42,407 bases of DNA, from assembly GCA_024278345.1 (NCBI GenBank), contig JAJRTK010000116.1:1-42407 (forward strand). The letters run 5' to 3'. Below, piece after piece: positions 1-39,004 of the stretch. How positions within the stretch are numbered: the stretch's first letter is position 1; each line of letters begins with the position of its first letter. Origin of the DNA: a bacterium (GTDB lineage: Bacteria > CSSED10-310 > JAJRTK01). The notes under the pieces are model-generated. The model worked only from the letters and a program-made list of their open reading frames with translations, had not been told where the DNA came from and did not search any database. Made by a program: the position numbers and the translations under genes.

Positions 1-482
1 CCTGTAGATTCTCCAGCCAGCGCCGATAGACCACCCGCCCAGCAGCCAGAGCACGCTCCTCGACCAGGTAGACCATCACATCGTGCGGGAGATCACTCAC
101 GACAGCGACCACGTACACCGGCCGATAAAATCCCGTGACAAGCGCCGCTGCATCGCTGTACCACGCCAACTTCACGTGGTAGCGAAGCCGAGCCGCGTCC
201 CGCACGAAATCTCTCACGGTCCGGTGCCGCGTCATCTTCAGATCGACCAGACACCCATCGGACAAAAAATCGATCCGCCCCTTGCAAGCGATGCCCGTCT
301 TCGGGTCGTCCCAAAAAAGGGACAGCTCCGACTGACCTTCCAGCAGCAGTTTCGAGGCCGCCGGGTGCTCCGCCACCGCTCGCGCCATCTCCGAGATCTG
401 CTCTATCTGGTCGCCCGTCAAGACCGTCCGACCACTCGCTTCCACCCGCCCCCGCCACTCCCGGGCGGCTTTGGTCCGAAAA
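1..482. repeat. Left copy of the 482-bp near-perfect terminal repeat
   Basis: The first 482 bases recur in direct orientation as the last 482 bases of the window. I found four substitutions by reading the two copies side by side, at 122, 234, 249 and 361 of this copy. The repeat lies wholly inside the exonuclease gene, so joining the ends restores one continuous leftward operon. It is either real terminal redundancy or the overlap of a circular assembly that caught two variants. Confidence 0.95.
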
Positions 483-703
483 CTGTCGAACTCCGACACG
501 GCATATTCGTCACCAAATTTGCCAGGCTCCAGCACCATCGTATGCACCGCCCGACCCAATCGGAGGGCATCCGAATCCGGCCGCGGGTTCCCAAGCCGCC
601 ACCGGTAGGTCGCAGGGCTCATCTCCATATGGAGAAGACTGCTGATATTGACTCCCGCCGCTGCGCGGTAGTCCGAAAAACTCATGCCTTCCTGGATCTT
701 CAT
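1..703 (-). CDS. RecE/YqaJ-like PD-(D/E)xK exonuclease, N-terminal part (runs off the left edge)
   Basis: Probable phage exonuclease of the PDDEXK superfamily (DUF3799/YqaJ/ExoVIII-like), which would resect duplex ends for single-strand annealing or packaging-coupled recombination. The ATG at 703 follows an AGGAGAG ribosome site. Joined to 41801-41925 the protein is 275 residues. Visible motifs are a conserved His in LGRAVH (about residue 54), a Glu near 126, GRID with Asp145, and VDLK with Asp154 and Lys156 as metal-binding and catalytic residues, followed by a YH-rich helix near 175. In this copy the residues after Lys156 are Met-Thr and the residue before Val-Asp is Leu; the right-hand copy has Thr-Thr and Gln. 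The start overlaps the stop of the upstream ORF as ATGA. Downstream genes encode a possible ssDNA-binding protein and an SMC-like ATPase, which supports a recombination role. Confidence 0.85.
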   Translation of the reverse strand, partial: MKIQEGMSFSDYRAAAGVNISSLLHMEMSPATYRWRLGNPRPDSDALRLGRAVHTMVLEPGKFGDEYAVSEFDSFRTKAAREWRGRVEASGRTVLTGDQIEQISEMARAVAEHPAASKLLLEGQSELSLFWDDPKTGIACKGRIDFLSDGCLVDLKMTRHRTVRDFVRDAARLRYHVKLAWYSDAAALVTGFYRPVYVVAVVSDLPHDVMVYLVEERALAAGRVVYRRWLENLQ

Positions 704-1932
704 GCTGCGCTCTCCTGCGTGCGTGAAATGGTTCGTGAAATATCATGCCCCCGTCCGTTCGATGATCTTTGTTGATCTCCATCGGTCGGCGGGTTATTCT
801 TCCCGTGGGAGTTCAAAGGAGGCGTGTCATGGGAGAAAACGCGGGAAGCAAGTTCATCCCCCCCGGAGAAAACCTGGTCGAAGGCCCCCGCCAAAAGGCC
901 TTTTCCACCATGGACCGGACAGAAATCGTCCGACGTTGGGATTCGCCCACTGGCCAACGCATTCGAAATGCTTGGATCGAATCCGGATTCGATAGAGGCA
1001 CCTTGGAAAGTCTTGTCGGTCGCCATCACGGGCACCAGGATATCCGGGGGATCGACATCTCCAGCCAGACCCTCGAGGACGCCGACCTCTCGACCATCGA
1101 CTTCTTTCGGGCCAACCTCGAGGGCGCTTCCCTCAAAAGGGCCAACCTCAATGACTCCTGGCTCTCCGAAGCCCGCATCAGGGGCACCTCCTTCGACTGG
1201 GCCAAGATGGACGGCGTTCTCCTTGACGACACCGATTACGACAGCCGAACCAGCTTCAAGGGAGTCGATCTCAACGTCGTCAACTTCACTCTCGCCGCCC
1301 TCCTCCAGGACCTCGCAAGATCCCAGCAGAGGATCGCCCACCTCGAGAAGCGGTCCCCAAAGCTCGCATGGATCCTGTGGGCGACCAGCGACTATGGGCG
1401 CTCTCTCGGCCGATGGTTGAGCTGGTGTTTTGGCCTCATCCTCGGGTTTGGGGGCGCGTTCTGGCTCTTCCCAGGCTCCACCAACGGGAACGGTTTGCTC
1501 GACGGAATCTATTTCTCCGTCATCACCTTCACCACTCTCGGTTATGGTGACATCGTCCCCGTCGGTTTCGGAAAACTCATCGCCATCCTCGAGGTCTTCT
1601 CCGGATACGGCATGGGCGGTCTGCTCATCGCCATCCTCGCCAGAAAGGTCATCGGAGACTGAGAAGTCGATGAGCCACCGAATCTCCCGCACGACGTCGG
1701 ACAAGGGCGTGACCAAGGTTTTTCCCACGACCTCCAGACTCTCCCCCGCCTGGAGCATCGCACCAGCCCTGTCCAAAATACACTGATACGGGTGCGCTCC
1801 AGGACCACGCCACCGGCGGAGGACCATCCTCAGCCGCGGGGGACCAAGGAGCCGCAAGGACTCACCGGTCCAGCTCAACACGAGATCTCCCCCAGGGTGC
1901 GTCATCCCGACAAAAAAAATTCCAATCCCCAT
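700..1932 (-). CDS. Leftward operon ORF of unknown function; only its N-terminal ~90 residues are well supported
   Basis: The reading frame starts at an ATG (1932) six bases after AAAGGAG and stays open for 410 residues, ending in an ATGA overlap with the exonuclease start. No family is recognised. The first ~90 residues (about 1932-1665) lie outside any other gene and look like a normal product. The rest is exactly antisense, codon opposite codon, to the pentapeptide-repeat channel gene at 829-1662. In that register an antisense frame stays open whenever the sense gene avoids TTA, CTA and TCA, which a GC-rich gene does, so the acidic C-terminal part may be an artefact. One reading is a small gene whose 3' end was altered when the channel gene was inserted. 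The other is a true nested antisense pair. Confidence 0.4.
   Translation of the reverse strand: MGIGIFFVGMTHPGGDLVLSWTGESLRLLGPPRLRMVLRRWRGPGAHPYQCILDRAGAMLQAGESLEVVGKTLVTPLSDVVREIRWLIDFSVSDDLSGEDGDEQTAHAVSGEDLEDGDEFSETDGDDVTITESGEGDDGEIDSVEQTVPVGGAWEEPERAPKPEDEAKTPAQPSAERAPIVAGRPQDPCELWGPLLEVGDPLLGSCEVLEEGGESEVDDVEIDSLEAGSAVVIGVVKENAVHLGPVEGGAPDAGFGEPGVIEVGPFEGSALEVGPKEVDGREVGVLEGLAGDVDPPDILVPVMATDKTFQGASIESGFDPSISNALASGRIPTSDDFCPVHGGKGLLAGAFDQVFSGGDELASRVFSHDTPPLNSHGKNNPPTDGDQQRSSNGRGHDISRTISRTQESAA
772..800 (+). promoter_or_regulatory. Candidate sigma70-type promoter for the channel gene
   Basis: TTGATC (772-777) and TATTCT (795-800) are separated by 17 bases and lie just upstream of an AAAGGAGG ribosome site (816-823) and the ATG at 829. 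Each hexamer matches four of six consensus positions. It points against the surrounding leftward operon, as expected for a separately expressed accessory gene. Confidence 0.5.
829..1662 (+). CDS. Pentapeptide-repeat protein fused to a two-TM potassium-channel pore
   Basis: A 277-residue membrane protein. The ATG at 829 was chosen because AAAGGAGG lies five bases upstream; the frame opens earlier at 769. Residues about 74-150 contain A-[DN]-L-x-x type pentapeptide repeats (EDADLST, RANLEGA, RANLNDS), predicted to form a right-handed beta helix. A linker with an amphipathic segment follows, then TM1 (about 196-214), a pore helix ending in the selectivity-filter signature TTLGYGD (235-241), and TM2 (about 249-272). 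This is the minimal Ion_trans_2 (Kcv/KcsA-like) pore, which would tetramerise and pass K+. It stands alone on the plus strand amid leftward recombination genes, with its own candidate promoter, so it looks like a moron. Plausible roles are superinfection exclusion, membrane depolarisation or host fitness; none can be chosen from sequence. Confidence 0.85.
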   Translation: MGENAGSKFIPPGENLVEGPRQKAFSTMDRTEIVRRWDSPTGQRIRNAWIESGFDRGTLESLVGRHHGHQDIRGIDISSQTLEDADLSTIDFFRANLEGASLKRANLNDSWLSEARIRGTSFDWAKMDGVLLDDTDYDSRTSFKGVDLNVVNFTLAALLQDLARSQQRIAHLEKRSPKLAWILWATSDYGRSLGRWLSWCFGLILGFGGAFWLFPGSTNGNGLLDGIYFSVITFTTLGYGDIVPVGFGKLIAILEVFSGYGMGGLLIAILARKVIGD

Positions 1933-1947
1933 TCCCCACTCCTTTCG

Positions 1948-2325
1948 TTATTTGGTTGCGTTGCGTTGGGTTCCGCTCACGGCGGCGGCAATCCGTCCGC
2001 CGCCACTCGCCAGTTTCCCCACCTGAAGGACTCCTGCCGCCGCCACACGGCGGCCAGGGAGCTTTTGACTCTCGGTGAACTTGGAAAACGCCCTCGTAAG
2101 GTACTTGACAAGGGCACACGCCTCCGTCCAGTCGCGCTCCTGAGCCCGCCAACAACTGGAGCTCCAGGACTGCACGATCCGATGGCGGTAACTCTTTGCG
2201 CCCGTTCTGTGGATCGCCAGAACAAAGCAAACCTCCCCCGACGTGCTGATGGCGTGGAACTCCATGGCGCCAATCTCCATGTGGACCTGTGTTTTGGGCT
2301 GTTTCATCAAAATTCCCATACCCAT
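1948..2325 (-). CDS. Early leftward operon protein, unknown function (related to the gene upstream)
   Basis: 125 residues, unrecognised family. The start at 2325 lies seven bases after AAGGAG. The sequence is soluble, rich in Ser, Arg and Trp, with no membrane segment. Near the C-terminus it carries GRRVAAAGVLQVGK, nearly identical to GRRIAAAGVLQVGK in the gene at 2344-2622, and both proteins end in a similar R-N-A-T tail. The matching DNA is also similar, so the two 3' ends probably arose by duplication. It is the second gene downstream of PL, in a position where lambdoid phages carry small host-takeover or anti-restriction proteins. Confidence 0.65.
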   Translation of the reverse strand: MGMGILMKQPKTQVHMEIGAMEFHAISTSGEVCFVLAIHRTGAKSYRHRIVQSWSSSCWRAQERDWTEACALVKYLTRAFSKFTESQKLPGRRVAAAGVLQVGKLASGGGRIAAAVSGTQRNATK

Positions 2326-2343
2326 GCTCTCGCTCCTTTCAAC

Positions 2344-2622
2344 TCAGGTTGCGTTCCGCGCGGGCTGCTCGCGGCCGCTCCCATCCCGCGCCCGTTTCCC
2401 AACCTGGAGGACGCCCGCGGCCGCGATTCTTCGTCCGGAGAGAGCCTTCGCGGAATCCCATGCGCGAAACGCACGGCGGAACAGGACTTCAGCAGCCTCG
2501 CACTCCGCGTCCGTCCCCGAGTCCATGAACCGGAGATCTCCTCCCTCCCGCAGGAGGAGGTAGGTATAAGGTCCGCTCGTGATGATTAGGCCCAACTCCC
2601 AGCTCTTCCCCTCTTGCACCAT
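2344..2622 (-). CDS. First gene of the leftward early operon, unknown function
   Basis: 92 residues from the ATG at 2622, chosen because GGAGG lies eight bases upstream. The frame is open further upstream to 2850 but would then cross the PL promoter; an ATG at 2667 is the alternative start. No family is recognised. The N-terminal half has alternating hydrophobic strands, the middle is a helical acidic/Arg segment, and the C-terminus has the GRRIAAAGVLQVGK tail shared with the next gene. Nineteen bases separate it from that gene. Expression should be under OL/PL control and hence repressed in the lysogen. Confidence 0.6.
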   Translation of the reverse strand: MVQEGKSWELGLIITSGPYTYLLLREGGDLRFMDSGTDAECEAAEVLFRRAFRAWDSAKALSGRRIAAAGVLQVGKRARDGSGREQPARNAT

Positions 2623-2698
2623 CTTCTTGCCCTCCGTGGTGGTCTTGGTCTTGTTCAACCCGCGCATCTCCCAGGCCCGTGGTTTCCTCTCCACCACC

Positions 2699-2733
2699 GC
2701 CAGCCGAATTGATCGGCTGGCTTTTGCTTTTTT
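2699..2733 (+). terminator. Rho-independent terminator reading rightward, within the PL leader
   Basis: A 9-bp perfect stem (GCCAGCCGA / TCGGCTGGC) with a 5-base loop is followed on the plus strand by TTTTGC and six T residues. In this orientation it would end rightward transcripts entering from the channel gene before they reach the repressor region. On the minus strand the same hairpin lies in the PL leader without a U-tract, where it might act as a boxB-like RNA hairpin. Confidence 0.7.
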
Positions 2734-2779
2734 GGGGTTGTCAGCAGCGTCCAACCAAGCAAGATTGTTCGCTATAGGT

Positions 2780-2808
2780 AAGGTAGTTACCAAATAGGTA
2801 ATTGTCAA
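2780..2808 (-). promoter_or_regulatory. PL promoter with operator OL
   Basis: On the minus strand a perfect TTGACA (2808-2803) is followed 17 bases later by TACCTT (2785-2780), a weak -10. The spacer holds an inverted repeat TTACC-AAATA-GGTAA (2787-2801), the same palindrome as in the rightward promoter region. Both promoters also share the string TTGACAATTA. It would drive the leftward operon and be repressed by the CI-like protein. Confidence 0.65.
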
Positions 2809-2815
2809 GAGGGCC

Positions 2816-2839
2816 AAAAAAAAAACCACCAAATGATGG
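2816..2839 (-). terminator. Rho-independent terminator of the repressor transcript
   Basis: Read leftward, CCATC-ATTT-GGTGG forms a short 5-bp stem with one G-U pair, followed by a run of ten T residues. It lies about 30 bases after the repressor stop codon and ends eight bases before the PL -35 box, insulating PL from repressor transcription. Confidence 0.7.
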
Positions 2840-2868
2840 CTTTTCAACAAATTACGGCGTAATGGCCG

Positions 2869-3462
2869 CTAGAGATTTCTCCAAACTCCAGCGGCTTTGC
2901 CGATCAACACGCAGTCTTCTTTCCGGAATGGTCTGTTATCGACTGCGATTTGGACAAAGTTTCCACGCTGTTGCCAAACCCCTAATTCTGTTCTGTCGTT
3001 GATTTGTACAGCCACGATTTTTCCTGGCTCAAGGTTTATCGGACTCGTTAGAATGATGATGTCACCGGCATTGAAATGGAGGATCGGTTTTGACAATCGC
3101 ATGGCAATTGCCGGGCCGTCGTCCCGTTCAAGAGGAATCGAAATTCTTTCAAGCGTCTGAGTGGCACATTCGGCAACGAATCCGTCAAACGTCGTATTCA
3201 TGGCTGGCATACCCCCAATGGGCAAGATCGGGACACTGATCCAATCAGTCATTCTTTCCCCATACTCGCTCACAAGTGTAAGTAAGTCAACCCCTGCTGC
3301 CGCCATGATTCGGTCCAACGAATCAGTGCTTGCCGAACGCTTCCCGCTTAGGATTCGCGATAGTTGCGCTGGAGACATATTGGCCTTTTCGGCAATTTTT
3401 TCTTGAGATGCGCGGTCCTGGATCCATTTTTTGAGCATTGGCCGCAAGTCCCCGGTGTACAT
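2869..3462 (-). CDS. CI-like phage repressor (HTH + degenerate S24/LexA-like domain)
   Basis: 197 residues from the ATG at 3462, preceded by GGGAGAGAGG. Residues about 18-42 form an HTH_3-type DNA-binding domain (EKIAEKANMSPAQLSRILSG). The C-terminal part (about 75-190) resembles the LexA/CI dimerisation and autoprotease fold: NAGDIIILT fits the GD-hhhh segment and DNRPF the N-P-x-[YF] strand. A clear SMxP nucleophile motif is not visible (only LSKP near 124), and the position expected to hold the catalytic Lys reads TELGVW. The protein may therefore not self-cleave. It is flanked by OL and OR, transcribed away from cro, and ends at its own terminator, so it is the lysogeny repressor. Confidence 0.9.
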   Translation of the reverse strand: MYTGDLRPMLKKWIQDRASQEKIAEKANMSPAQLSRILSGKRSASTDSLDRIMAAAGVDLLTLVSEYGERMTDWISVPILPIGGMPAMNTTFDGFVAECATQTLERISIPLERDDGPAIAMRLSKPILHFNAGDIIILTSPINLEPGKIVAVQINDRTELGVWQQRGNFVQIAVDNRPFRKEDCVLIGKAAGVWRNL

Positions 3463-3498
3463 GTTCCTCTCTCCCGCGTTGTGGGTGTTACGGGAGGC

Positions 3499-3527
3499 AT
3501 TGTGAGCCCATCCGACCGTCAGCTCAA
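3499..3527 (-). promoter_or_regulatory. Candidate PRM promoter of the repressor gene
   Basis: On the minus strand TTGAGC (3527-3522) and CACAAT (3504-3499) are spaced 17 bases apart and lie about 37 bases upstream of the repressor ATG. Each hexamer has four of six consensus bases. It diverges from the cro promoter. Confidence 0.45.
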
Positions 3528-3547
3528 AAGTCAACGAGATTTCCCTC

Positions 3548-3575
3548 TTGACAATTATTACCGTTAGGGTAATAT
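3548..3575 (+). promoter_or_regulatory. PR promoter with operator OR
   Basis: TTGACA (3548-3553), a 16-base spacer and TAATAT (3570-3575) give a strong sigma70-type promoter. A 7-bp perfect inverted repeat, TATTACC-N5-GGTAATA (3556-3574), fills the spacer and overlaps the -10, the usual place for a repressor operator. The transcript should start around 3581-3583, at the cro ATG. Confidence 0.8.
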
Positions 3576-3582
3576 AGGTTGC

Positions 3583-3813
3583 ATGGTGTCTCAACGAGAA
3601 AAACTGAAATCATCTCTGAGCAAGGCAGGCTTGCCGCAAGCAAGATTCGCGGAAATGGTTGGCATCTCTGCCAAACACATGTCTGTCATCCTCGGTGGTG
3701 GTGGGCTGTCACCGTTTGTAGCGGCACGAATTGCCCAGACGGCCCAAGAGCTTGGTTGTGAGATTGACCCTTTTCTTCTGTTGATCGAGCGCATCAACGA
3801 GACGGCTGCCTAA
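3583..3813 (+). CDS. Cro-like HTH regulator, probably leaderless
   Basis: 76 residues. The N-terminal half is a helix-turn-helix (about residues 15-42, RFAEMVGISAKHMSVIL), followed by a helix likely used for dimerisation; there is no effector domain. It is the first gene of the rightward transcript, divergent from the repressor, hence the Cro assignment. The ATG lies only eight bases after the -10 box and has no Shine-Dalgarno sequence in front of it, which predicts a leaderless mRNA, as known for lambda cI from PRM. Cro would bind the same palindromes as the repressor and commit to lysis. Confidence 0.8.
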   Translation: MVSQREKLKSSLSKAGLPQARFAEMVGISAKHMSVILGGGGLSPFVAARIAQTAQELGCEIDPFLLLIERINETAA

Positions 3814-3866
3814 AAAGTTCATGTACCCAGTTAATCGCGCTGTCACGCAAGGGATGACCGAGTGCC

Positions 3867-4349
3867 ATGCAGAATCGCGAGCTGCGAAAAGCCCACCGTT
3901 CCGTGACCGGCTTCCAGGAAGAGCTGGCAAGCCTCCTCTACCGGAGGCTCATTCTCCGGGCCGGCCCGGCGACGGTGGCGGACATGGCGAGCGTGCTGGA
4001 GGTTTGCCACTCCACGGTGACCCGGCAATGCACCGGTGACATTCCGGTGCAGGCTCGAACCGCCCTCGCCCTTTGGTTCGTTGACCGGGATGGCGGTCGG
4101 TTGGTGCTGGATCTGTTGGGAGATGAAACGGGGATGGCGTGGGAACCCACGCCAATCCTGGCCCACGGTGATATTCCCAGAGCTGCTTCCGTGGCTGGTA
4201 TGAAGGCGGCGGAACTCGCTGGAGCCCTCTGCCGCATCCTTGAGGATGGCAGGGTTGACGATGTTGAACGCTCCGAGTTGGAGCAGCTTCTGCCCCGCGC
4301 CATTTACCACATCCAGCGCCTCAAGACGGAACTCGGGAGGGCTGGGTGA
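3867..4349 (+). CDS. Probable CII-like phage regulatory protein
   Basis: 160 residues, 53 bases after cro. The pattern of an N-terminal helical segment, an HTH (about residues 36-62, VADMASVLEVCHSTVTRQ) and the following PVQARTALALWFVDRDGG region resembles the Phage_CII family (P2/lambdoid regulators). The C-terminal 60 residues are helical. The position right after cro fits a delayed-early regulator of the lysis-lysogeny decision. The ribosome site is weak (AAGGGA, 12 bases upstream). The gene converges with the minus-strand membrane-protein gene, with two bases between the stops and no terminator visible. Confidence 0.55.
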   Translation: MQNRELRKAHRSVTGFQEELASLLYRRLILRAGPATVADMASVLEVCHSTVTRQCTGDIPVQARTALALWFVDRDGGRLVLDLLGDETGMAWEPTPILAHGDIPRAASVAGMKAAELAGALCRILEDGRVDDVERSELEQLLPRAIYHIQRLKTELGRAG

Positions 4350-4351
4350 TG

Positions 4352-5032
4352 TCATTTGCTCCGGCAATATCCTCTTACGTAGGTGCCATTGCGCCGAACA
4401 TAACTGCGGACCCAAACCTGCCCAGGGCCACACCGACTCGTGATATTCGCAGTTTTTTCGGGCAGCGAGTTCCGCCTGGCCGGGAGGACTTGGAGCACGT
4501 TGCAGGAAATCCGACCACGCCATTTCCCGGGGGAATGCGCGTATTGGAGTCGGCAAAGGCTACCCTCCCAGACCACGAATGTGAATTTGAAGGGCATCAC
4601 TTGGCCGGGGCCAAAACGCGTCCGAAAAGCTGCCAACAGCGATGCACTGTCGCGTTCACGGCCGATGTCAAATTCGATGGCGGAAATCACGTTTCTGGCC
4701 ACCTCGAAACGGACGTAGGAGATAGGGATCTTCCCGAACCGCAGGTTTTGCTCCAGAGGCTCGTACCACAGGACTCCTCCGCTGCCACCAGCCGCTTTCA
4801 CGTCTTTGAAGTTTCGTATGCTGGATTCAAGCTTGATACCGAACAAACCATAATCGCGGTCCAATTGAATCCGCCCGCGAATTGTGGCCCGTTCTGCTTT
4901 CAGCTTCGCATTCTTCCAGTGCGCACACGTTCCGATGGCGGTAACCGCACCGGAGAAAAGCAGAACTCCGGCGAGTACGCTGGCGGTCCTTCCCCTTCTG
5001 ATAGCTTTCCCTGCCGGATCGACGACCTTCAT
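4352..5032 (-). CDS. One-pass membrane protein of unknown function, last gene of the cargo operon
   Basis: 226 residues from the ATG at 5032, which overlaps the stop of the upstream gene as TGATGA. A basic N-terminus (residues 1-16) is followed by one hydrophobic segment (about 17-38), predicting an N-in anchor with a large exported domain that carries scattered Cys residues. No family was recognised. Co-translation with the secreted, C-terminally anchored protein upstream suggests that the two act together at the cell surface. It is unrelated to replication or virion genes and faces against the early rightward operon, typical of lysogenic-conversion cargo. Confidence 0.6.
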   Translation of the reverse strand: MKVVDPAGKAIRRGRTASVLAGVLLFSGAVTAIGTCAHWKNAKLKAERATIRGRIQLDRDYGLFGIKLESSIRNFKDVKAAGGSGGVLWYEPLEQNLRFGKIPISYVRFEVARNVISAIEFDIGRERDSASLLAAFRTRFGPGQVMPFKFTFVVWEGSLCRLQYAHSPGKWRGRISCNVLQVLPARRNSLPEKTANITSRCGPGQVWVRSYVRRNGTYVRGYCRSK

Positions 5033-5601
5033 CACACTGCCTCGATGCGCTCCCGCCGCAGAAAGACCAGCATCACCCCCACCAGCAGGAACGCCAGGCT
5101 GTGGGTGAAGACACCGGAAGAAGGCAGCTTCGCCGGGATTGGGGTTGGGGTTCCCACCGGAGTCGGGGTGTGCGTCCCGAAGGGGGTGGGCGTGGCTGTG
5201 GGAGTCGGGGTTGGCTCGTTAACGCTAAAAAGTAAACTGTCGCCGAGGAAAGAATTATCCCCGCCAAGGATTGTTGCACTCACAGTAACGTGCCAATCGC
5301 GGTTGGTTCCAGGAACAACATGGACCTGTGCCCACCCGGAGCCGCCGGTAGTCCGAAAAACAGCGTCTAAGTATGTTCCTGCAGTCTGGCTATACAGATC
5401 AAAAAACACCTTTTGCCCGGCCACCGGCTCCAACTGGGAGTTCAGCACCAGGGCATCCACGGGCACGGGTGGTCCCCCCGCCACCGGTTCCTGGATCATC
5501 CGGATGGAGATGAGGCAGCCGTCGCAGGGTTGCGCTCCTGCGGCGGTAGCGGCCATGGCCATGCCGGCCGCGAGGATCGTTGCAAAAAACACGCGTGCCA
5601 T
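5032..5601 (-). CDS. Secreted surface protein with Pro/Thr stalk and LPxTG-like C-terminal anchor
   Basis: 189 residues; AAAGGAG lies seven bases before the ATG. An N-terminal signal peptide (about 1-23, cleavage near AGA/QP) precedes a compact beta-rich domain (about 25-128) with a Cys-x-x-Cys pair, similar in feel to Ig-like or invasin-type domains. A Pro/Thr-rich stalk (about 130-157) follows, then LPSSG (159-163), a hydrophobic segment (about 166-181) and the basic tail RRER. That tripartite C-terminus is the layout of sortase- or exosortase-type sorting signals. The gene starts three bases after the toxin stop and overlaps the next membrane-protein gene. It has no structural role that I can see and would alter the surface of the lysogen. 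Confidence 0.75.
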   Translation of the reverse strand: MARVFFATILAAGMAMAATAAGAQPCDGCLISIRMIQEPVAGGPPVPVDALVLNSQLEPVAGQKVFFDLYSQTAGTYLDAVFRTTGGSGWAQVHVVPGTNRDWHVTVSATILGGDNSFLGDSLLFSVNEPTPTPTATPTPFGTHTPTPVGTPTPIPAKLPSSGVFTHSLAFLLVGVMLVFLRRERIEAV

Positions 5602-5604
5602 CGT

Positions 5605-6147
5605 TCACTCCTTTCTCCCCCTTGGGGACGGCTGTGCGCCCGATCTCTCCCCCGTGCGGTGTTTGGCGTCTAGTTCCGTTTTGTCCAGCCACAGCTCGAC
5701 TCGGCCGTTGCGGGCGATTTTCCCCACGAACGGCCCGGCGGCTGATTCCACGATTCGTTGGATTCCCGGGACTGCTCGAAGAACGAGTTTGGCGATGCTT
5801 GCGCCGTTGAGTCCATCTTTCTTCAAGATGAAGACCCTGGCTCCCGCGGCATGGATCGCTCGAAGCTCGGCTTTGCGGTATCGGATCTTCTTGTCTCCGG
5901 TGATGGTCACCCAGCCGCGCCGACCGACTTCCACGATCCATTCCGTGTCCGGGGTATCGGCCTCGAAGTGGTCGAAGAACTTCTCGAAGCGGATTCCCGC
6001 GTCGGCGAGCGTGGAAGCCAGCAGCCGCCCGCAGATGTTCGCTTCCAGGAACAGCGTGCAGTCACGCGGCCCGTTTTCTTGCGGCCTGGCTCTGGAGGGT
6101 CGCCCAGCTCCGGACGCCTTCTTCGACTTGCGTTTCCTCGAGGCCAT
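5605..6147 (-). CDS. PIN-like ribonuclease toxin (VapC45/DUF5615-like)
   Basis: 180 residues from the ATG at 6147 (GGAGG three bases upstream); it overlaps the antitoxin gene by 86 bases. After a basic 28-residue tail comes a PIN-like fold: LFLEANICG with Glu35 where the family usually has Asp, a DHF...TPDTEW segment with Asp67 and Glu69, and TGDKKIR with Asp85, followed by ARVFIL. These acidic residues would bind the metal used for RNA cleavage. Members of this PIN branch are known to pair with DUF433 antitoxins, as here. A C-terminal extension after about residue 120 is unassigned. The Glu-for-Asp change in motif 1 may weaken activity. Confidence 0.7.
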   Translation of the reverse strand: MASRKRKSKKASGAGRPSRARPQENGPRDCTLFLEANICGRLLASTLADAGIRFEKFFDHFEADTPDTEWIVEVGRRGWVTITGDKKIRYRKAELRAIHAAGARVFILKKDGLNGASIAKLVLRAVPGIQRIVESAAGPFVGKIARNGRVELWLDKTELDAKHRTGERSGAQPSPRGRKE

Positions 6148-6763
6148 AATCCTCCGCCAGCTCCTGGATGGTGTCTCCGGACTGGAACCGGTCTCCAAGC
6201 GTCTCGATGGTGATCCTGGTTCCTGCGACCACTGGCAGGCCACCCGAAATTCCGGGGCGGATCTCCACCGTCCTCGGGCTGTCGGGGCTTCGGTCCGGCC
6301 GGGTGATCAGGTAGATGCGGCAGGGCCATCCCTGGGAATCGTAATCGACGCGCCTCAGGTAGGGAAGGAGCACTGCCTTCAATCCCAACTGCCCCCCCCG
6401 GGACGCGTTGATGACATCTCCGGCGTGTTGGACGAAGAGGTCCAGGCCATCCGTTTTGAACACCTTGTTGGCCAGCGGATGGCGAATCCCCAGCTCCCGG
6501 GCTGCGAACTCCACCGCGCGGCGGATCTTCCGCATGGGCATCCGCTTGACGCGGCGCAATGCGTCCAGGACATAGGCTTCCACGAGGTTGATGGGCGACA
6601 GGTGGCTCAACTCGGGTTCCGGCAAATCGATCACGGGTGGAGAAAACTTTTCGCCCGACGAATACCGTCGCCCGCGAACCCATGTCCTGAGCGTCGATGG
6701 GGCCAGGCCAAGATAGAGCGCCGCTTCGGTCAACCCGTAGTTGGGAAGTTCCAAGGTATCCAT
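6062..6763 (-). CDS. DUF433 antitoxin with N-terminal MerR-like HTH
   Basis: 233 residues from the ATG at 6763 (AGGAG ahead). Residues about 10-32 are a MerR/HTH_17-like DNA-binding segment (LTEAALYLGLAPSTLRTWVRG). The middle (about 55-130) is helical. The C-terminal 50 residues carry the DUF433 signature GGLPVVAGTRITIETL...GDTIQELAEDYGL. DUF433 proteins are antitoxins of PIN-like toxins, and the HTH would allow the complex to autorepress its own operon. The gene overlaps both its upstream neighbour (34 bases) and the toxin (86 bases). Confidence 0.75.
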   Translation of the reverse strand: MDTLELPNYGLTEAALYLGLAPSTLRTWVRGRRYSSGEKFSPPVIDLPEPELSHLSPINLVEAYVLDALRRVKRMPMRKIRRAVEFAARELGIRHPLANKVFKTDGLDLFVQHAGDVINASRGGQLGLKAVLLPYLRRVDYDSQGWPCRIYLITRPDRSPDSPRTVEIRPGISGGLPVVAGTRITIETLGDRFQSGDTIQELAEDYGLEETQVEEGVRSWATLQSQAARKRAA

Positions 6764-7044
6764 GCCGCGACTCTCCTGTTTTTCCGCACTGGTGAAAGCG
6801 TCTCCATTGCGTGTTCTTGCTTTGCCGGTAAGGAACTGCCCTGCAAGACACACGTTTTTCGGGAAGCGTGCCAAACATCATCGGCCACTGCTTTTATGTC
6901 CGCCTCGATGGCCTGTTCCATTCCCTGCCCCGCATGTGCCTCAACTTTTGGCCATAGCGTGATTTTCCATCCACCGGTCCAAAGTCCATGCCAGAGAAGC
7001 GGCAAGCTTTTGAGCCTGAGGTGTTTCCGTCGTTTCTCCTTCAT
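6730..7044 (-). CDS. Small basic protein at the head of the toxin-antitoxin operon, unknown
   Basis: 104 residues from the ATG at 7044, preceded by a leader (AAACAGGAGTGTCGCG) nearly identical to the one before the antitoxin ATG, which suggests a local duplication. The N-terminus is rich in Lys and Arg, followed by a Trp-rich stretch and a helical acidic region. No family was recognised. Its last 34 bases overlap the antitoxin start in another frame. It could be a leader peptide or a third component of the module. Confidence 0.5.
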   Translation of the reverse strand: MKEKRRKHLRLKSLPLLWHGLWTGGWKITLWPKVEAHAGQGMEQAIEADIKAVADDVWHASRKTCVLQGSSLPAKQEHAMETLSPVRKNRRVAAWIPWNFPTTG

Positions 7045-7406
7045 CGCGACACTCCTGTTTCGCCGTTGTGGGACAACATCCCCAAAAGGGTTCACCCAGA
7101 AACGAAAACACTGTTTCCTACCTACCGATCATAATCCTTCGCGGAAGAAAACGCCAGGATCTCCTTGTGCATCGTTTCTCCCCACCCCTGATTCCTCCTC
7201 CATGGGGCATCTCCCAACGGCCACGAAGGAGCCGGAGGAGCGGACTGCATCATCCTTCCCCGCCCGGGTTCGAGGCCGGGCACCCCAGACGATTTGCCCG
7301 GGGCGTCTCCCCCGCGACACTCCCGTCCCGGGCAAACCGTCTTTTTCTCCGTTTTTCAACTTTCAATGCGACGTAGCGGGGACGTCACCGCTCCAGGAGA
7401 TTCAGG
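7045..7406. other. Divergent intergenic region between cargo operon and replication genes; 10-bp inverted repeat
   Basis: No convincing gene in 362 bases. A perfect 10-bp inverted repeat, TTTGCCCGGG (7293-7302) and CCCGGGCAAA (7327-7336), with a 24-base spacer lies 70 bases before the replication gene; TTTTT follows at 7342-7346. It could be an operator or a weak terminator. On the minus strand TATGAT occurs near 7130, a possible -10 for the cargo operon, but with a poor -35. Confidence 0.5.
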
Positions 7407-7769
7407 ATGTCGCACCCTAGACACAAGGATCTGAAAAGGCTCATCGCGATCATGGCAAAGAAGCAACGGCAGAAGCACGCGCAGGCAACTGGACAGCGGC
7501 TCCGAGCCGCCCGGCGGGCATATCTCCGCAGCCACTACATCGCCTACGGATACCTTCACGGACGCTCCATCGCCCGGATGGAAGCCCCCGGGACCATGCG
7601 GCTTGTGGATATCGACCAGGTGCTGAAAATCTTTCGTGCTCGCCATCCAGGTGCGCCCAAGGAGCGGGCCCAAGCCACGGTGATCCTTCTCGAAGAACTT
7701 TATGCCTGGAACTGCAACATCAAGATGCGCCTTCAGGTATTCTCCGGGATGCTGAAGGTGGCGGCATGA
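7407..7769 (+). CDS. Small basic protein before the primase-helicase, unknown
   Basis: 120 residues; AGGAG lies seven bases before the ATG. The first 55 residues are strongly basic (Lys, Arg, His, Gln) and helical, suggesting nucleic-acid binding; the remainder is helical without a known motif. Its stop overlaps the primase-helicase start as ATGA, so the two are translationally coupled. A role in origin recognition or helicase loading would fit this position but is inference. Confidence 0.7.
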   Translation: MSHPRHKDLKRLIAIMAKKQRQKHAQATGQRLRAARRAYLRSHYIAYGYLHGRSIARMEAPGTMRLVDIDQVLKIFRARHPGAPKERAQATVILLEELYAWNCNIKMRLQVFSGMLKVAA

Positions 7770-10327
7770 TGACGGCGCGGGACAACCATGATTGGAGCAG
7801 GGAACACGTCTACTATGCGCTGCGTCTGCTGGTCCCCCGGGGGCAGGTCACGGAGCTTCGGGCGCTCAATGTCCGCCGTGGCCGCGGCCGGCCTTTTCAG
7901 AGCAGTGGGTACTTCGACGATTTGGACGCGATGGCAGATGCAGCGGCCATACTGTCCGGACAGGCGGACGGAGTCTATTTCCTCCCGAATCCCGTGGACA
8001 AGCGACTACTGGCAAGGTCGTGCAACAAGCTCAAGGACTATCCCAAGCGGACGACCACGGATGCTGAAATCACGAGACGCGTAGTCCTGCTCCTTGACTT
8101 CGACGCCATCCGACCGGCGGGGATTCCGGCCACTGACTCTGAACATACCATGGCCATCGACAGGGCCAGAGCCGCACGAGACCGCCTGCATGGTGTCGGT
8201 TTTCCGCCTCCTGTCTTGGCCGATTCAGGAAACGGTGCCCATCTGGTCTATCGCGTGGATCTGCCTCGGGATGACAAAGGGCTACTAAAACGCTGCCTCG
8301 AAGGTGCCGCTTTCCTTTTCGACGATATCGCTGTGCAGGTGGATCGGACGGTCTACAACGCAGCCCGGATTTGGAAGATGTACGGCACTCTTGCCCGGAA
8401 AGGGGACGGCGCTCCAGGGCAGCCCCACCGCTACGCGTTGATCCTTGATGCCCCGGAGCAGCTTGACGTCGTTCCTGAAAAGCTCCTGCTGTCGCTGGCG
8501 GACGCAGCTCCAAAAGTGCCGACTCCAAAGCCACGGAATGTCGTCACGCTCCAGCATCGTTCGTTCGACCTTGAAAACTGGCTCCGGGACCACAGCGTCC
8601 CGGTCGCTCCTCCGGTCCCCTGGTCCGGCGGCCGGCTGTGGCGATTCCTGGAACGATGCCCCTTTGATGCTCAGCATAAGGGGCGCGAGTTCCATATCGC
8701 GGAGCTTCCGTCCGGGGCCATCAGTGCCGGGTGTCAGCACGCGACCTGCCCTGGGAGCAAGGCCAATGGTAATGCGTGGGATTTGGTGCGGGAGCTATTC
8801 GAGCCCGGCTACAAAGATAAACAGGCAAAGTCGCGGCCGAAAAGAGCGAAGAAAAGAACACCGGCCAAGGCTGATCCCGGTGCGGAGGCTCCACCGGATG
8901 GAGGCAAGCTCCTTTGGGCGCCACTCACGGACTATGGCAATGCGGAGCGACTCATGGAAGCGGCTCTCGATAAAGATGGCACACCGCTCCTCCGATGGTG
9001 CGGGCAAAGGGATCGGTGGCTCTACTGGACAAAAAAGCGATGGTGCTGGGACGAAACAGGGATTGCCGAACGGTACGCCAAACGCACGATTCGGCAGCTT
9101 TATGAGGCTGCAATCGACATAAAAAACGACGACTACCGCGAACAGCTCCGGACCCATGCCCGCCGCTCGGAATCCGCTGGCCGGTTGAAGAACATGCTGG
9201 AACTTTTCAAGACCGAGCCAGGAATCGGTGTGCTCATGGACGACCTCGACGCCAACGATTGGCTCTTGAACTGCCAAAACGGGGAGGTGGATCTCAGGAC
9301 TGGCGAGCTGCATCCGCACCGTAAAGAGAGCCTCTGCACGAAGATCGTCAGAGCGAGCTACGGGAAAGATGCGGAGTGCCGTGAGTGGGAAGACTTCCTC
9401 TACTACATCATGGACGGAGATACCGAGCTCGTCCGGTTCCTTCAGCGGGCACTGGGGTATTCTCTCACGGGGGTTCCGGCTCAGGAGCTCTTTTTCTGCT
9501 ACGGCCTTGGAGCGAACGGAAAGTCCGTATATCTGGAGGTGATATCCCGGATCCTGGCCGATTATGCGGGGGAAGCGGCCCAAGGGCTCATGCTGGAAAA
9601 AAAGAGCGAACAGCACCAGACGGAGATCGCCGACCTGACCGGAAGGCGGTTTGTCACCAGCGAGGAAGTCTCCTCCACCTCCATTCTTGACGAAGGAAAG
9701 GTGAAGCGGCTCACTAGCGGAAGGAACATAAAAGCGCGATTCATGCGACAGGACCTCTTCGAATTCCGACCGACACACAAACTGTGGCTCGCGGTCAACC
9801 ACAAACCGCGGATCCGGAGCCAAGACAAAGGGATTTGGCGACGGATCAAGATGATCCCCTTCCGCGTCACGATTCCAGACAAGGATCAGAAACCATTTTC
9901 GGATGTTGTGCATGGGTTCCTCAGCGAAAGCGATGCCATTGTGCGCTGGCTCGTGAATGGCTGCCTGGAGTGGCAGCGGCAGGGCTTGAACCCCCCGCGG
10001 GCTATCCATGCAGCCATCGAAGACTACCGGGACGACATGGATATTCTGGGCCGGTTTTTGCGTGAGAAAACCGTGGCGGAATCGGAAGCGTGGATCCAGT
10101 CATCAGTTCTTTATAAGGCCTACCAGGCATGGGCGGAGCAGCAAGGCATGAAGCGACCCTGGACGCAGACCGCGTTTTCATTGCGGCTCCAGGATCGCGG
10201 GATGTCGAAAATCACCCGAGGAACAGTCCGCTGGCTCGGGATCCGCCTTCGAGCCGAACTGGAGGGTTTGGAGGGTCCGGAACAACCCTCCACTGACTAT
10301 CCATCAGGGCAAGCTCAATGGAATTAG
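7766..10327 (+). CDS. Replicative primase (AEP type) fused to SF3 helicase (D5/P4-like)
   Basis: 853 residues. The N-terminal part is an archaeo-eukaryotic primase domain: motif I LLLDFDAIRP (Asp111, Asp113), motif II SGNGAHLVY (His159), and motif III near RIWKMYGTLARKGD. A zinc-binding segment follows (CPF...H...GCQHATC, about 290-325). After a basic linker (about 350-370) come a D5_N-like helical region and an SF3 helicase with Walker A GLGANGKS (about 580-587), Walker B-like FVTSEEV (about 631-637) and sensor LAVNHKPR. This is the all-in-one replication initiator of many temperate phages and satellites: it melts the origin, unwinds and primes. The last ~20 codons run into the GGAGGG repeat array, so its likely binding site overlaps its own 3' end. 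Confidence 0.93.
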   Translation: MMTARDNHDWSREHVYYALRLLVPRGQVTELRALNVRRGRGRPFQSSGYFDDLDAMADAAAILSGQADGVYFLPNPVDKRLLARSCNKLKDYPKRTTTDAEITRRVVLLLDFDAIRPAGIPATDSEHTMAIDRARAARDRLHGVGFPPPVLADSGNGAHLVYRVDLPRDDKGLLKRCLEGAAFLFDDIAVQVDRTVYNAARIWKMYGTLARKGDGAPGQPHRYALILDAPEQLDVVPEKLLLSLADAAPKVPTPKPRNVVTLQHRSFDLENWLRDHSVPVAPPVPWSGGRLWRFLERCPFDAQHKGREFHIAELPSGAISAGCQHATCPGSKANGNAWDLVRELFEPGYKDKQAKSRPKRAKKRTPAKADPGAEAPPDGGKLLWAPLTDYGNAERLMEAALDKDGTPLLRWCGQRDRWLYWTKKRWCWDETGIAERYAKRTIRQLYEAAIDIKNDDYREQLRTHARRSESAGRLKNMLELFKTEPGIGVLMDDLDANDWLLNCQNGEVDLRTGELHPHRKESLCTKIVRASYGKDAECREWEDFLYYIMDGDTELVRFLQRALGYSLTGVPAQELFFCYGLGANGKSVYLEVISRILADYAGEAAQGLMLEKKSEQHQTEIADLTGRRFVTSEEVSSTSILDEGKVKRLTSGRNIKARFMRQDLFEFRPTHKLWLAVNHKPRIRSQDKGIWRRIKMIPFRVTIPDKDQKPFSDVVHGFLSESDAIVRWLVNGCLEWQRQGLNPPRAIHAAIEDYRDDMDILGRFLREKTVAESEAWIQSSVLYKAYQAWAEQQGMKRPWTQTAFSLRLQDRGMSKITRGTVRWLGIRLRAELEGLEGPEQPSTDYPSGQAQWN

Positions 10328-10545
10328 TGGATTACAACCTGGAGTGGAGGGTTGGAGGGTTTGGAGGGTTTGCATATCCCTTACGCGTGCGCGCGCGCGC
10401 ACACCCACAATCCCTCTTATTGGGATGATGGTGTTGCTGACTAACCCTCCAACCCTCCAAATTTATACATTAACCAGTTGAAAGAAAAGAAAAAAGAATG
10501 ATTCTCCAAACCCTCCAAAACCCTCCACAAACCCTCCAACCCTCC
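10261..10545. repeat. Iteron-like GGAGGG/CCCTCC array, candidate replication origin
   Basis: Twelve copies of one hexamer. GGAGGG occurs at 10261, 10270, 10346, 10354 and 10363. Its complement CCCTCC occurs at 10286, 10445, 10453, 10511, 10521, 10532 and 10540. Most copies are flanked by TT/AA and spaced 8-11 bases apart, about one helical turn. The forward copies cluster left of a GC-alternating tract and an AT-rich stretch (10457-10500), and the reverse copies cluster right of it. The layout, next to the SF3 helicase gene, resembles iteron origins. Three forward copies in a row are also G-quadruplex-prone. Confidence 0.75.
10382..10404. other. Alternating purine-pyrimidine (CG/CA) tract, possible Z-DNA
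   Basis: Twenty-three bases alternate strictly between pyrimidine and purine, mostly as repeated GC with flanking CA and TA steps. It lies between the two halves of the repeat array. Such tracts can flip to left-handed DNA under negative supercoiling. Confidence 0.7.
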
Positions 10546-11031
10546 AGCCAGCATTTCAGTGACTCCCTGAGGGCGGGACGCCAGGGAGAGGACTACATCA
10601 AGGCCCTGCTGGAGGAACAAGGATTCCGCGTCACCAGAGCCACCATGCCGGCACAACGGCGCGGGATTGACCTTTTCGTTAGCAGACCCAAATCAGTGGA
10701 GGTCAAGACATGCTGGACGAAAAGATGTTTCCTCGAGTTCGCCAGGTTTACCAGGGGCATCCACGAGCCCAGCGGGTTGGCGACTACGGAGGCCGATTGG
10801 TGGGCCATCGTGCGGCCTGGGGATGAGCCGAAGGTCTACTGGTGCCGCCCTGCCATCCTTTGGAAGCGCTGTAGCCAATGGATGGAGAGGTATGGCCAGG
10901 CCTATGGGCCACAAGAAAGGGGAGGCCGAGCAAAGAGCCACGGGGTCATGGTGCCGTGGCAGGATATCGCCAGTGTGGCGACAGCCGGTCCGGCTGAAAG
11001 GCACGAGGCCAGCATCGAACGAGGGGAGTAA
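10498..11031 (+). CDS. PD-(D/E)xK nuclease, Holliday-junction-resolvase-like
   Basis: 177 residues. The fold signature is clear: GRQGEDYIKALLEEQGF (Glu31), RGIDLFVS (Asp58), then SVEVKT (Glu68, Lys70), the order seen in archaeal Hjc-type and related restriction-like resolvases. The first ~20 residues (LQNPPQTLQP) are encoded by the repeat array, so the ATG at 10498, with only a poor A-rich ribosome site, may not be the real start; no other in-frame ATG occurs before residue 50. It probably resolves branched DNA before packaging, since it lies between the replication and terminase genes. Confidence 0.75.
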   Translation: MILQTLQNPPQTLQPSSQHFSDSLRAGRQGEDYIKALLEEQGFRVTRATMPAQRRGIDLFVSRPKSVEVKTCWTKRCFLEFARFTRGIHEPSGLATTEADWWAIVRPGDEPKVYWCRPAILWKRCSQWMERYGQAYGPQERGGRAKSHGVMVPWQDIASVATAGPAERHEASIERGE

Positions 11032-11596: not shown

Positions 11597-12010
11597 ATGG
11601 CGAAGCGGAGAAAATATGCTCCCGAAGTCAAGGCGGCAGTCCTGGCCGCACTTCTGGCGGGTCAGCGAGTCAGCGATGTCGCCGAAAAATACAAGATGCC
11701 CCGGGCGACGGTGAGCGCCTGGAAGTGCCTGCAAAATAACGGGACATCACTAGCAACCCTTACAGCCGAAAAAAAGGAAACCATCGGAGAACTCCTCTTC
11801 GGATATCTCAAGGAAAACCTCCGTGCGCTTCGTGTTCAATCGCAAGTCTTCCAGGACAAGGACTGGCTCAAGTCCCAAGGGGCTGCGGAGCTTGGCACGC
11901 TCCATGGGATTCAGACGGACAAGGCCGTTCGCCTTCTCGAAGCGCTCGATGGAGGAGACGAAATCCACCAGGACCTACATCCCCCACACACCCACCCCTC
12001 GCCAGGCTGA
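11597..12010 (+). CDS. terS: Terminase small subunit-like HTH protein
   Basis: 137 residues. The N-terminal 45 residues are a transposase/terminase-type HTH (GQRVSDVAEKYKMPRATVSAWK); the central part is a long helical region suited to ring assembly; the tail is His/Pro-rich. Small terminases recognise phage DNA at the packaging site and regulate the large subunit. It overlaps the large-subunit gene by 62 bases, which supports the assignment. Confidence 0.75.
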   Translation: MAKRRKYAPEVKAAVLAALLAGQRVSDVAEKYKMPRATVSAWKCLQNNGTSLATLTAEKKETIGELLFGYLKENLRALRVQSQVFQDKDWLKSQGAAELGTLHGIQTDKAVRLLEALDGGDEIHQDLHPPHTHPSPG

Positions 12011-13280
12011 GTTCCTCGCACTGGATTGCTTGGAGGCGTTCTACGGTGGCGCCGCCGGGGGCGGAAAGAGTGACGCTCTGCTCATGGCGGCGCTGCGGTA
12101 TGTGGATGCCCCTGGTTACGCGGCCATCCTTTTCCGGCGCACCTATCAGGACCTGGCCCTGCCCGGCGCTCTCATGGATCGGGCTTCGCACTGGCTCGCC
12201 GGGTCGGATGCCTCGTGGAACGGAACGACCCGGACCTGGACCTTCCCCGGTGGAGCCACGCTTTCCTTCGGGTATTTGGCTCACGAGCAGGACAAGTTTC
12301 GATACCAAGGGGCGGAGTTCCAGTTCGTCGGGTTCGACGAGCTGACGCAGTTTTCGGAATCGGCCTACCGGTACCTGTTTTCCAGGCTCCGGCGGCTGGC
12401 TGGCTCGGCGGTACCGCTTCGGATGCGCGGGGCGTCGAATCCCGGCGGGCTCGGTCACGCCTGGGTCAAGCAGAGATTCCTAGTGGAAGGCCAGGCCGCG
12501 GGCCGACCGTTCATCCCCGCCAGGCTCTCCGACAATCCGCACCTGGATCGGGAGGAATACGAAAAAAGCCTGTTGCTGCTCGATCCCACCACCAGGCAAC
12601 AGCTCCTGGATGGGGATTGGGACGCGAGGCCACCGGGCAAGAAGTTCCGCCGGGAGTGGTTCGAGATTGTCAAGAAGGCGCCCCGGCAACTCCGTTGGTC
12701 CCGTTTTTGGGACTTGGCCTCGACGGAACCCAAGTCGGGTCGGGATCCTGACTGGACCGTGGGGCTGCTCTTGGGCGAGGCCAGGGGCGAATACTGGATC
12801 GCCGACATCAGGCGGGCGAGACTGAATCCTGGCGGAGTCGAGCGGCTCATCCGGCAGACGGCTATCATGGATACGCCACGGGTAGAGATTTGCATCGAGC
12901 AGGAGCCGGGCTCAAGCGGCAAGAGCCTCATCTGGTATTACCAGACACATGTATTGCAGGGTTTTGCCGTCTACGGGATCCGCGCCACAGGCTCCAAAGA
13001 AACAAGGGCCAATCCGGTGAGTGCCGCCGCACAGGCTGGACTGATCCACGTCGTTGAAGGCCCGTGGCTCGGCGAGCTCTTCGACGAGCTCGAGGTCTTT
13101 CCCGGGGGGGCTCATGATGATCAGGTGGACGCACTCTCTGGGGCGTTCGCAAAGATTGCTGGTAGTGGCAGCCGTTTGAGTGGCGATTGGCGGGGATCTC
13201 CTCGCTTATCTCCGTTGGCCGAGGCTCTTCAGAGAGATCGCAATGCCGTGGTGACGGCGAAGGCAAAGGTGCGATGGTGA
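11949..13280 (+). CDS. terL: Terminase large subunit (packaging ATPase-nuclease)
   Basis: 443 residues from the ATG at 11949; an upstream extension of the frame to 11823 runs within terS and is unlikely. The ATPase domain has Walker A GGAAGGGKS (33-41) and Walker B FVGFDE (Asp130-Glu131). The RNase H-like nuclease domain has FWDLAST (Asp254) and GAHDDQVDAL (Asp389, Asp390, Asp393). It cuts concatemers and pumps DNA through the portal. The stop overlaps the portal start (ATGGTGA). Confidence 0.95.
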   Translation: MEETKSTRTYIPHTPTPRQAEFLALDCLEAFYGGAAGGGKSDALLMAALRYVDAPGYAAILFRRTYQDLALPGALMDRASHWLAGSDASWNGTTRTWTFPGGATLSFGYLAHEQDKFRYQGAEFQFVGFDELTQFSESAYRYLFSRLRRLAGSAVPLRMRGASNPGGLGHAWVKQRFLVEGQAAGRPFIPARLSDNPHLDREEYEKSLLLLDPTTRQQLLDGDWDARPPGKKFRREWFEIVKKAPRQLRWSRFWDLASTEPKSGRDPDWTVGLLLGEARGEYWIADIRRARLNPGGVERLIRQTAIMDTPRVEICIEQEPGSSGKSLIWYYQTHVLQGFAVYGIRATGSKETRANPVSAAAQAGLIHVVEGPWLGELFDELEVFPGGAHDDQVDALSGAFAKIAGSGSRLSGDWRGSPRLSPLAEALQRDRNAVVTAKAKVRW

Positions 13281-37137: not shown

Positions 37138-37433
37138 GTCAAAAAAGCAACGGCCTTGCAGCGGAAGTCTCCGAGCGCGTTCTGGGCCGATGGGCGGGAG
37201 CAATTCTGGCTATCATCGCCACGATCCTACTCTCCGGGGTCGGTTGGGTAGTGGCCTCCACCGTCACAGCCCAGAGGCGTCTGGCAGTCATCGAGGTATC
37301 TCGCTTTACTCCGGTCGATGCCAGAGAACTCGAGAATAGGATCCAGACGACCATCGATGCGAAGCTCACCAGGATGGAGGCGAAGCTGGACCGGATAGAC
37401 GATGCACTTCGGGAGCTGGCACGGGAGAAGTAG
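37134..37433 (+). CDS. One-TM protein with C-terminal coiled coil, i-spanin-like
   Basis: 99 residues. One transmembrane segment (about 20-44) is followed by a charged helix with heptad pattern (DARELENRI...TRMEAKLDRIDDALREL). That topology is that of an inner-membrane spanin (Rz-like) or a XhlA-type accessory protein. It is the last rightward gene and converges on the integrase across a 195-base gap. Confidence 0.55.
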   Translation: MSQKSNGLAAEVSERVLGRWAGAILAIIATILLSGVGWVVASTVTAQRRLAVIEVSRFTPVDARELENRIQTTIDAKLTRMEAKLDRIDDALRELAREK

Positions 37434-37628
37434 ACGACCTCCTTGTTTACCCCTTTGTTTACCCCCAAAAGCTGTCAATCAACGTCAATCGCTGGAGTTG
37501 CCTGTCGGTCGAACGAGGTGTCAAGGGCCGTGGCGGCGCGAAATGTCGCGCCATGCCATGCAACTATCTGAAATAAAACATATTTGATATCCCATCCAAT
37601 GGGCGGCCTCAGTGACGGGCTTGAGACT
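37434..37628. other. Convergent intergenic region: candidate attP and hairpin
   Basis: No gene in 195 bases next to the integrase 3' end, the usual attP location. Two direct copies of TTGTTTACCCC (37443-37453 and 37455-37465) resemble integrase arm sites; GTCAATC also repeats at 37475 and 37484. A hairpin GGCGCG-AAATGT-CGCGCC (37535-37552), extendable by TGGC/GCCA with a 2-base bulge, lies at the centre, followed by an AT-rich stretch (37563-37585). No U-tract follows the hairpin, so it is not a standard terminator. Confidence 0.45.
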
Positions 37629-38843: not shown

Positions 38844-39004
38844 CGCTCCACCAGCCAGGCATAGGGTATGCGGACAATACCACCGATCCTCACCGCCGGG
38901 ATTTCCCCGGACTTGAGCCATCGGTCGATCGTCCGGACGGACACATCGAGTGCCAAGGCCGCTTTTTTTCGTGATAGCAAAATCGGTTGGGTCGCGTCCA
39001 TCAT
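38714..39004 (-). CDS. Excisionase-like HTH (MerR/HTH_17) protein
   Basis: 96 residues from the ATG at 39004, with AAAGGAG ahead and an ATGA overlap with the amidase stop. Residues about 9-55 form the HTH_17 fold (LSRKKAALALDVSVRTIDRWLKSGEIPAVRIGG..RIP) of excisionases. The last ~43 residues overlap the integrase start in another frame, much as xis overlaps int in lambda. It probably directs excision and may bind attP. Confidence 0.75.
   Translation of the reverse strand: MMDATQPILLSRKKAALALDVSVRTIDRWLKSGEIPAVRIGGIVRIPYAWLVERCTSTSTKTGRAAKRRTGGQRSVTKLVGCGGSPHPLAVPFEHG

Follow-up and report, generated by a model that had tools for sequence, protein, structure and literature searches.

A pentapeptide-repeat potassium-channel-like gene of a temperate tailed phage, a candidate moron with relatives in phages and bacterial chromosomes

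Introduction

Why would a temperate tailed phage carry what appears to be a complete potassium-channel gene, and from where could it have obtained it? The question is raised by a rightward gene found in a contig of 42,407 nucleotides, which was analysed at its full length and is called here the window. A first reading made from the letters alone (the sequence-only reading) had described this gene as a phage-borne fusion of a pentapeptide-repeat domain to a potassium-type pore, and had proposed that its expression in a lysogen could change membrane potential, block superinfection or abort infection. The follow-up analysis agrees with the first part of this description, namely that a potassium-channel-like pentapeptide protein with both domains and the selectivity filter is encoded in a phage that carries an integrase and a CI-like repressor. 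The possible roles of the protein are weighed below together with the evidence that bears on each of them.

The phage genome and the channel gene

The window corresponds to the whole of one contig (C35) of a 550-contig assembly, and was binned with a metagenome-assembled genome. Its two ends (1-482 and 41926-42407) overlap over 482 bp with 99.2% identity, so that it represents a complete phage genome of about 41.9 kb, either circular or with terminal redundancy. The presence of an integrase, a CI/LexA-like repressor, a P4-type primase and a terminase identifies it as a temperate tailed phage. The integrase, which marks the temperate lifestyle, is of the tyrosine type (37629-38921, minus strand, PF00589), and the repressor (2869-3594, minus strand) was recognised by its HTH_3 domain and by similarity to the LexA C-terminal part, its true start being likely the ATG at 3462. 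A search for the host attachment site found none, with the region 37400-37700 matching only the contig itself, and the window contained no RNA family or tRNA. No DNA-level relatives of positions 1-8000 were found in INPHARED.

The channel gene occupies positions 829-1662 of the plus strand as an uninterrupted frame of 277 codons. Its placement is that of the sequence-only reading, a rightward gene with the phage's early genes on the other strand. It stands head-to-head with a gene for a DUF3799/PDDEXK_1 nuclease (minus strand, 1-703, continuing across the contig junction at 41801-41925), for which IMG/VR held no relatives, and tail-to-tail with a small leftward ORF that starts at 1932 (1661-1932, minus strand), downstream of the repressor. 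No known families were recognised in this ORF or in the other neighbouring small genes. A Shine-Dalgarno sequence, AAAGGAGG, can be read directly at 815-822, 6 nt before the ATG at 829, and the predicted ribosome-binding site is strong. Moreover, the third-position GC content (0.76) and codon score (0.086) resemble those of the clear genes of the phage, and codon use equals that of its structural genes. A chance ORF is excluded, because homologues over the whole length of the protein exist in another phage (52% identity) and in a chromosome of the CPR (44% identity).

One element of the sequence-only reading, a candidate promoter proper to the channel gene, found no support in a sigma-70 consensus scan, which gave no match on the plus strand near 704-828. 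Over 4 kb the scan returned a single site where 1.2 would be expected, and it carries little weight, as the sigma-70 consensus may not be that of the host. On the opposite strand, a codon-aligned antisense frame (700-1932, minus strand) remains free of stops along the entire channel gene, an outcome with a chance of about 0.004 under the codon use of the phage. The corresponding 410-aa ORF was rejected as a true gene, as the sense frame is the one with homologues, a strong Shine-Dalgarno sequence and better codon use. The lack of a consensus promoter (with the above reservation on the host) and the overlap with this long antisense frame are what could be expected of a recently captured bacterial gene of no use to the phage, decaying or unexpressed. 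Such an explanation seems very unlikely, however, given the ribosome-binding site and codon use just described, the retention of every residue that is invariant in an alignment of 29 family members, and the 52% identity that its full-length comparison with the version of another phage shows.

Domains and predicted structure

Both halves of the protein score above the Pfam cut-offs, the Pentapeptide family (PF00805) at residues 74-109 with 34.6 bits (cut-off 20.2) and Ion_trans_2 (PF07885) at residues 203-274 with 49.6 bits (cut-off 22.5). An AlphaFold2 (AF2) monomer prediction based on the 29-sequence alignment has a pLDDT of 89.5 and a pTM of 0.80, and arranges the chain as N-terminal helices, beta-helix, linker helices, first transmembrane segment (TM1), pore helix and second transmembrane segment (TM2). 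The N-terminal helical region (residues 20-62, window 886-1014, plus strand as all the segments that follow) is largely conserved in the phage and CPR homologues mentioned above. It is followed by A(D/N)LXX-type repeats that form a right-handed quadrilateral beta-helix (residues about 64-155, window 1018-1293), as indicated by PF00805, by the AF2 model and by solved pentapeptide proteins that match it with Z up to 14.4. Linker helices (residues 157-187, window 1297-1389), seen in the alignment and the model, then lead to a motif typical of the family, TSDYGRSLxRW (residues 186-196).

The pore half shows the order TM1 (residues 193-213, window 1405-1467), pore helix (residues 223-234; window 1495-1551 together with the filter), TxGYGD-type filter and TM2 (residues 247-276, window 1567-1656) in the AF2 model and in its match to KirBac3.1 (2wlj_A; Z 12.0, rmsd 2.6 over 95 residues). 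The filter itself is canonical, TTLGYGD, at residues 235-241 (window 1531-1551). Six lysine or arginine residues lie within the 33 positions that precede TM1 and two more follow TM2, while the loop that connects the segments has none. Under the positive-inside rule, this distribution would place the beta-helix on the cytoplasmic side of the membrane.

Relatives in phages

A single-protein scan of IMG/VR with the 277-aa protein and two profile scans found no channel relatives there. A DNA pattern for the filter, in turn, returned 32 viral stretches and was the only route by which the closest phage orthologue (L116) was reached; a scan with a DYGRS pattern gave three matches, none of them a relative. 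The L116 protein has 267 aa, is 52% identical to that of the window and belongs to an unrelated temperate phage (L116/L140) that bears a repressor, an anti-repressor and a ribonucleotide reductase, with the channel gene arranged tail-to-tail with the CI-like repressor. The same fusion was present in two further phages, thereby answering the call of the sequence-only reading for a family search: a 564-aa version in a Mu-like phage, at the contig edge and close to its repressor and transposase (L106), and a 336-aa version between terminase and portal, on the strand opposite to both (L109).

In addition, P2-like prophages (L108, at 9376-10689, L110 and L111) carry, between genes S and V, the gene for a channel protein of 438 aa. 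We take this place to be an accessory-gene site of P2, based on the P2 map and on neck/baseplate PHROG matches. The product of the gene at this site looks beta-helix-like; Pfam recognised no pentapeptide domain in its N-terminal part, and the AF2 model of the L108 protein is of low confidence (pLDDT 42.8).

The fusion has also a counterpart in PHROGs v4, phrog_15350 (function unknown), which likewise combines a pentapeptide region with a C-terminal TM/pore region and matches the window protein (E 1.3e-16, in two matched stretches) and those of L116 (1.4e-18) and L106 (1.2e-28). Its profile is 494 aa long, whereas the window protein comprises 277 aa and roughly three to four repeat coils. The two domains in this order, together with an SDxGRSxxRW linker motif, define the fusion family and are found in the window protein, which is thus a member of a known, uncharacterised family that is phage-borne in several independent cases.

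The statement that no characterised tailed-phage example existed held in the literature searched, where no paper on a phage pentapeptide potassium channel was found, but potassium-channel-like genes had already been annotated in tailed phages, namely Aeromonas phages LAh_6, LAh_8 and LAh_9, Streptomyces phage BillNye and Lactobacillus phage PLE2. A predicted potassium channel has been described too in a prophage of Oenococcus sicerae (PMC9867325). The LAh and BillNye proteins, phrog_14690 and the chlorovirus potassium channels share with the window protein a pore with the potassium signature. In contrast, these channels have no reported pentapeptide domain, and their pores match that of the window protein weakly (E 0.002-0.9).

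Two other groups of proteins appeared in the IMG/VR material. Small two-TM potassium-channel-like proteins of about 115-190 aa with an FTTVGYGDQ[FY]P filter occur in 14 contigs of up to 170 kb (L115, L118, L120, L122, L123, L127, L128, L130, L132, L134 and L136-L139) and apparently form a separate phage channel family. Six-TM proteins resembling voltage-gated potassium channels were found in the viral-classed contigs L117, L119, L124, L125, L126 and L131, which may represent host flanks.

Cellular relatives and origin of the gene

Relatives of the channel protein are numerous in cells, with 203 found in genome contigs. Chromosomal and plasmid pentapeptide potassium channels in RefSeq, where they are named "pentapeptide repeat-containing protein" or "potassium channel family protein", have the same domain order as the window protein, and most of them share with it the succession SD[CY]GRSxxRW, pore and EVxxGY. 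The closest cellular relative (L023) is of the same length and 44% identical, and is encoded in a Zambryskibacteria chromosome beside genes that we take, from their translations, to be ftsH, smpB and recG, that is, in an ordinary chromosomal neighbourhood. This type of gene is rare in that phylum (1 of 287 genomes).

In the phylogenetic tree, whose bootstrap is not fully settled and in which several branches are long, the window gene, the L116 orthologue and L023 form one clade (support 99/94), with the other phage copies placed elsewhere. The phage label requires five changes on this tree, and the supported branches force at least four phage/cell changes, which argues for repeated capture. 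Since relatives exist in several unrelated phages as well as in many bacterial chromosomes, the channel gene is probably a bacterial gene that phages have captured repeatedly.

A large clade of the cellular proteins differs from the phage copies in having an operon partner. In all 22 loci of the chromosomal clade with a TSDCGRS-type motif (L024-L027, L029-L037, L039-L041, L044, L046, L047, L054, L068 and L073), a gene for an HDOD protein (PF08668) follows directly downstream on the same strand. This pair of genes recurs across five or more phyla, with members from Thermodesulfobacteriota, Myxococcota, Actinomycetota, Gemmatimonadota, Acidobacteriota and an unplaced proteobacterium. Thermodesulfatator autotrophicus (L040) is one of the organisms where channel and HDOD protein go together. 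The constant presence of the HDOD gene suggests that the channel of this clade could be under intracellular signalling control. No HDOD gene was found near the phage copies or in the phage records.

These cellular relatives bear on the possibility that the gene simply serves host fitness, as a plain potassium channel helping the lysogen under osmotic, pH or membrane-potential stress. Homologues in the chromosomes of many phyla, the ordinary surroundings of the closest one and the signalling suggested by the 22 HDOD loci are consistent with this idea, for which there is a precedent in trkG of the Rac prophage, a studied prophage-borne potassium transporter (PMC9898762). Nevertheless, it seems unlikely, as several unrelated phages carry the gene at regulatory or accessory-gene sites, which points to a benefit specific to the phage.

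Comparison with channels of exclusion and defence systems

Membrane proteins proposed to act as ion channels in prophage-mediated exclusion include RexB of phage lambda and gp31 of phage Sbash (PMC6426596, PMC12894663), to which the window protein can be likened as a phage-borne membrane protein. RexB differs in possessing four TM segments, in working with a RexA-type partner and in lacking the potassium-channel fold and the TxGYGD filter. Membership of the RexAB group was rejected for the window protein, in whose model a pore helix lies between only two TM segments and among whose small neighbours no known family was recognised.

A second point of comparison is the Hailong anti-phage system, in which a cytoplasmic signal keeps a channel shut until its destruction by an incoming phage lets the channel open and depolarise the cell. 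Its channel, HalA, is blocked by poly-dA adducts of HalB (PMC13275509). As in the AF2 model of the window protein, a soluble N-terminal domain precedes the pore in HalA, and HalA with bound oligodeoxyadenylate (9nyi_A) was, among the matches listed, the only solved chain spanning both halves of the model. Foldseek related the two with an E value of 3.1e-5 over 285 columns, and VIA aligned 221 residues of 9nyi_A to model residues 36-276 with Z 11.7, rmsd 7.3 and 9% identity. With such a low identity and high rmsd, the match between the predicted and the solved structure is to be read as an architectural likeness, not as proof of kinship.

The channel could accordingly be imagined as an abortive-infection or exclusion effector working like HalA, held by a signal and opened by an incoming phage with consequent depolarisation. 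Exclusion genes often lie near the phage repressor, as lambda rexAB does, and the channel gene has such a position. This fits the idea, as does the 9nyi_A match across both model halves, yet the idea appears doubtful. Besides the identity and rmsd given above, HalA was not seen among sequence or profile matches (including the best 60 of 360 in one search), and no HalB-like nucleotidyltransferase (PF01909 NTP_transf_2, PF18765 Polbeta) was found in the other phage records or in the window contig, the control genomes having been matched. PADLOC (2023 library, which predates Hailong) gave no defence-family match for the channel protein.

Proposed function

The reading that we favour, with a probability of roughly one half, is that the gene is a moron of a temperate phage encoding a cytosolically gated two-TM channel of potassium type, which is expressed in the lysogen and benefits the resident phage. 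The position on the opposite strand, the variable sites occupied in unrelated temperate phages and the relatives outside the phage backbone are all features of a moron. Under this model, the gene would have been acquired horizontally, and its product would assemble in the inner membrane as a presumed tetramer with a potassium-type, probably potassium-selective, pore. A cellular signal would act through the cytoplasmic N-terminal beta-helix to open or close the pore. Expression in the lysogenic state would come from a rightward transcript of the gene's own, and the resulting changes in potassium flux and membrane potential would favour the resident phage, most plausibly through exclusion of superinfecting phage or through potassium or stress adaptation of the host.

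As far as the sequence allows, the most likely role is therefore worded as that of a lysogenic-conversion potassium channel, for which exclusion and host potassium physiology are indistinguishable at this level. A housekeeping potassium role would be equally possible, given the ordinary neighbourhood (FtsH, SmpB, RecG) of the nearest homologue found in cells. A bolder version, which must be considered a long shot, is that temperate phages repeatedly captured pentapeptide potassium channels as stand-alone ligand-gated exclusion effectors: HalA-like guards whose beta-helix would sense a signal of the superinfecting phage, be it a nucleotide, a nucleic acid or a protein, and which would depolarise the cell with neither a HalB nor an HDOD partner.

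Should the moron channel conduct and be made in lysogens, it would show plainly that a tailed phage can set the potassium permeability of its host by means of a true potassium-channel pore. If true, the fusion, found in at least four phage backbones, would count as a phage gene that has been selected repeatedly. Moreover, the role of the widespread and uncharacterised family of pentapeptide potassium channels becomes testable, with a compact phage version of 267-278 aa and one cellular branch with a conserved HDOD partner.

Other features of the phage genome

Some observations made elsewhere in the window are worth recording. A C-terminal tail, GRR[VI]AAAGVLQVGK, is repeated in two small adjoining ORFs (1948-2325 and 2344-2850, minus strand). 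A PIN_10 protein and an overlapping DUF433/HTH_66 protein (5605-6874, minus strand) form a toxin-antitoxin-like pair, beside which a secreted Ig-like protein is encoded (5032-5601). Finally, the terminase large subunit (11823-13280, plus strand) is closest, at 47%, to those of the methanogen viruses psiM2 and psiM100 and of Gordonia phages.
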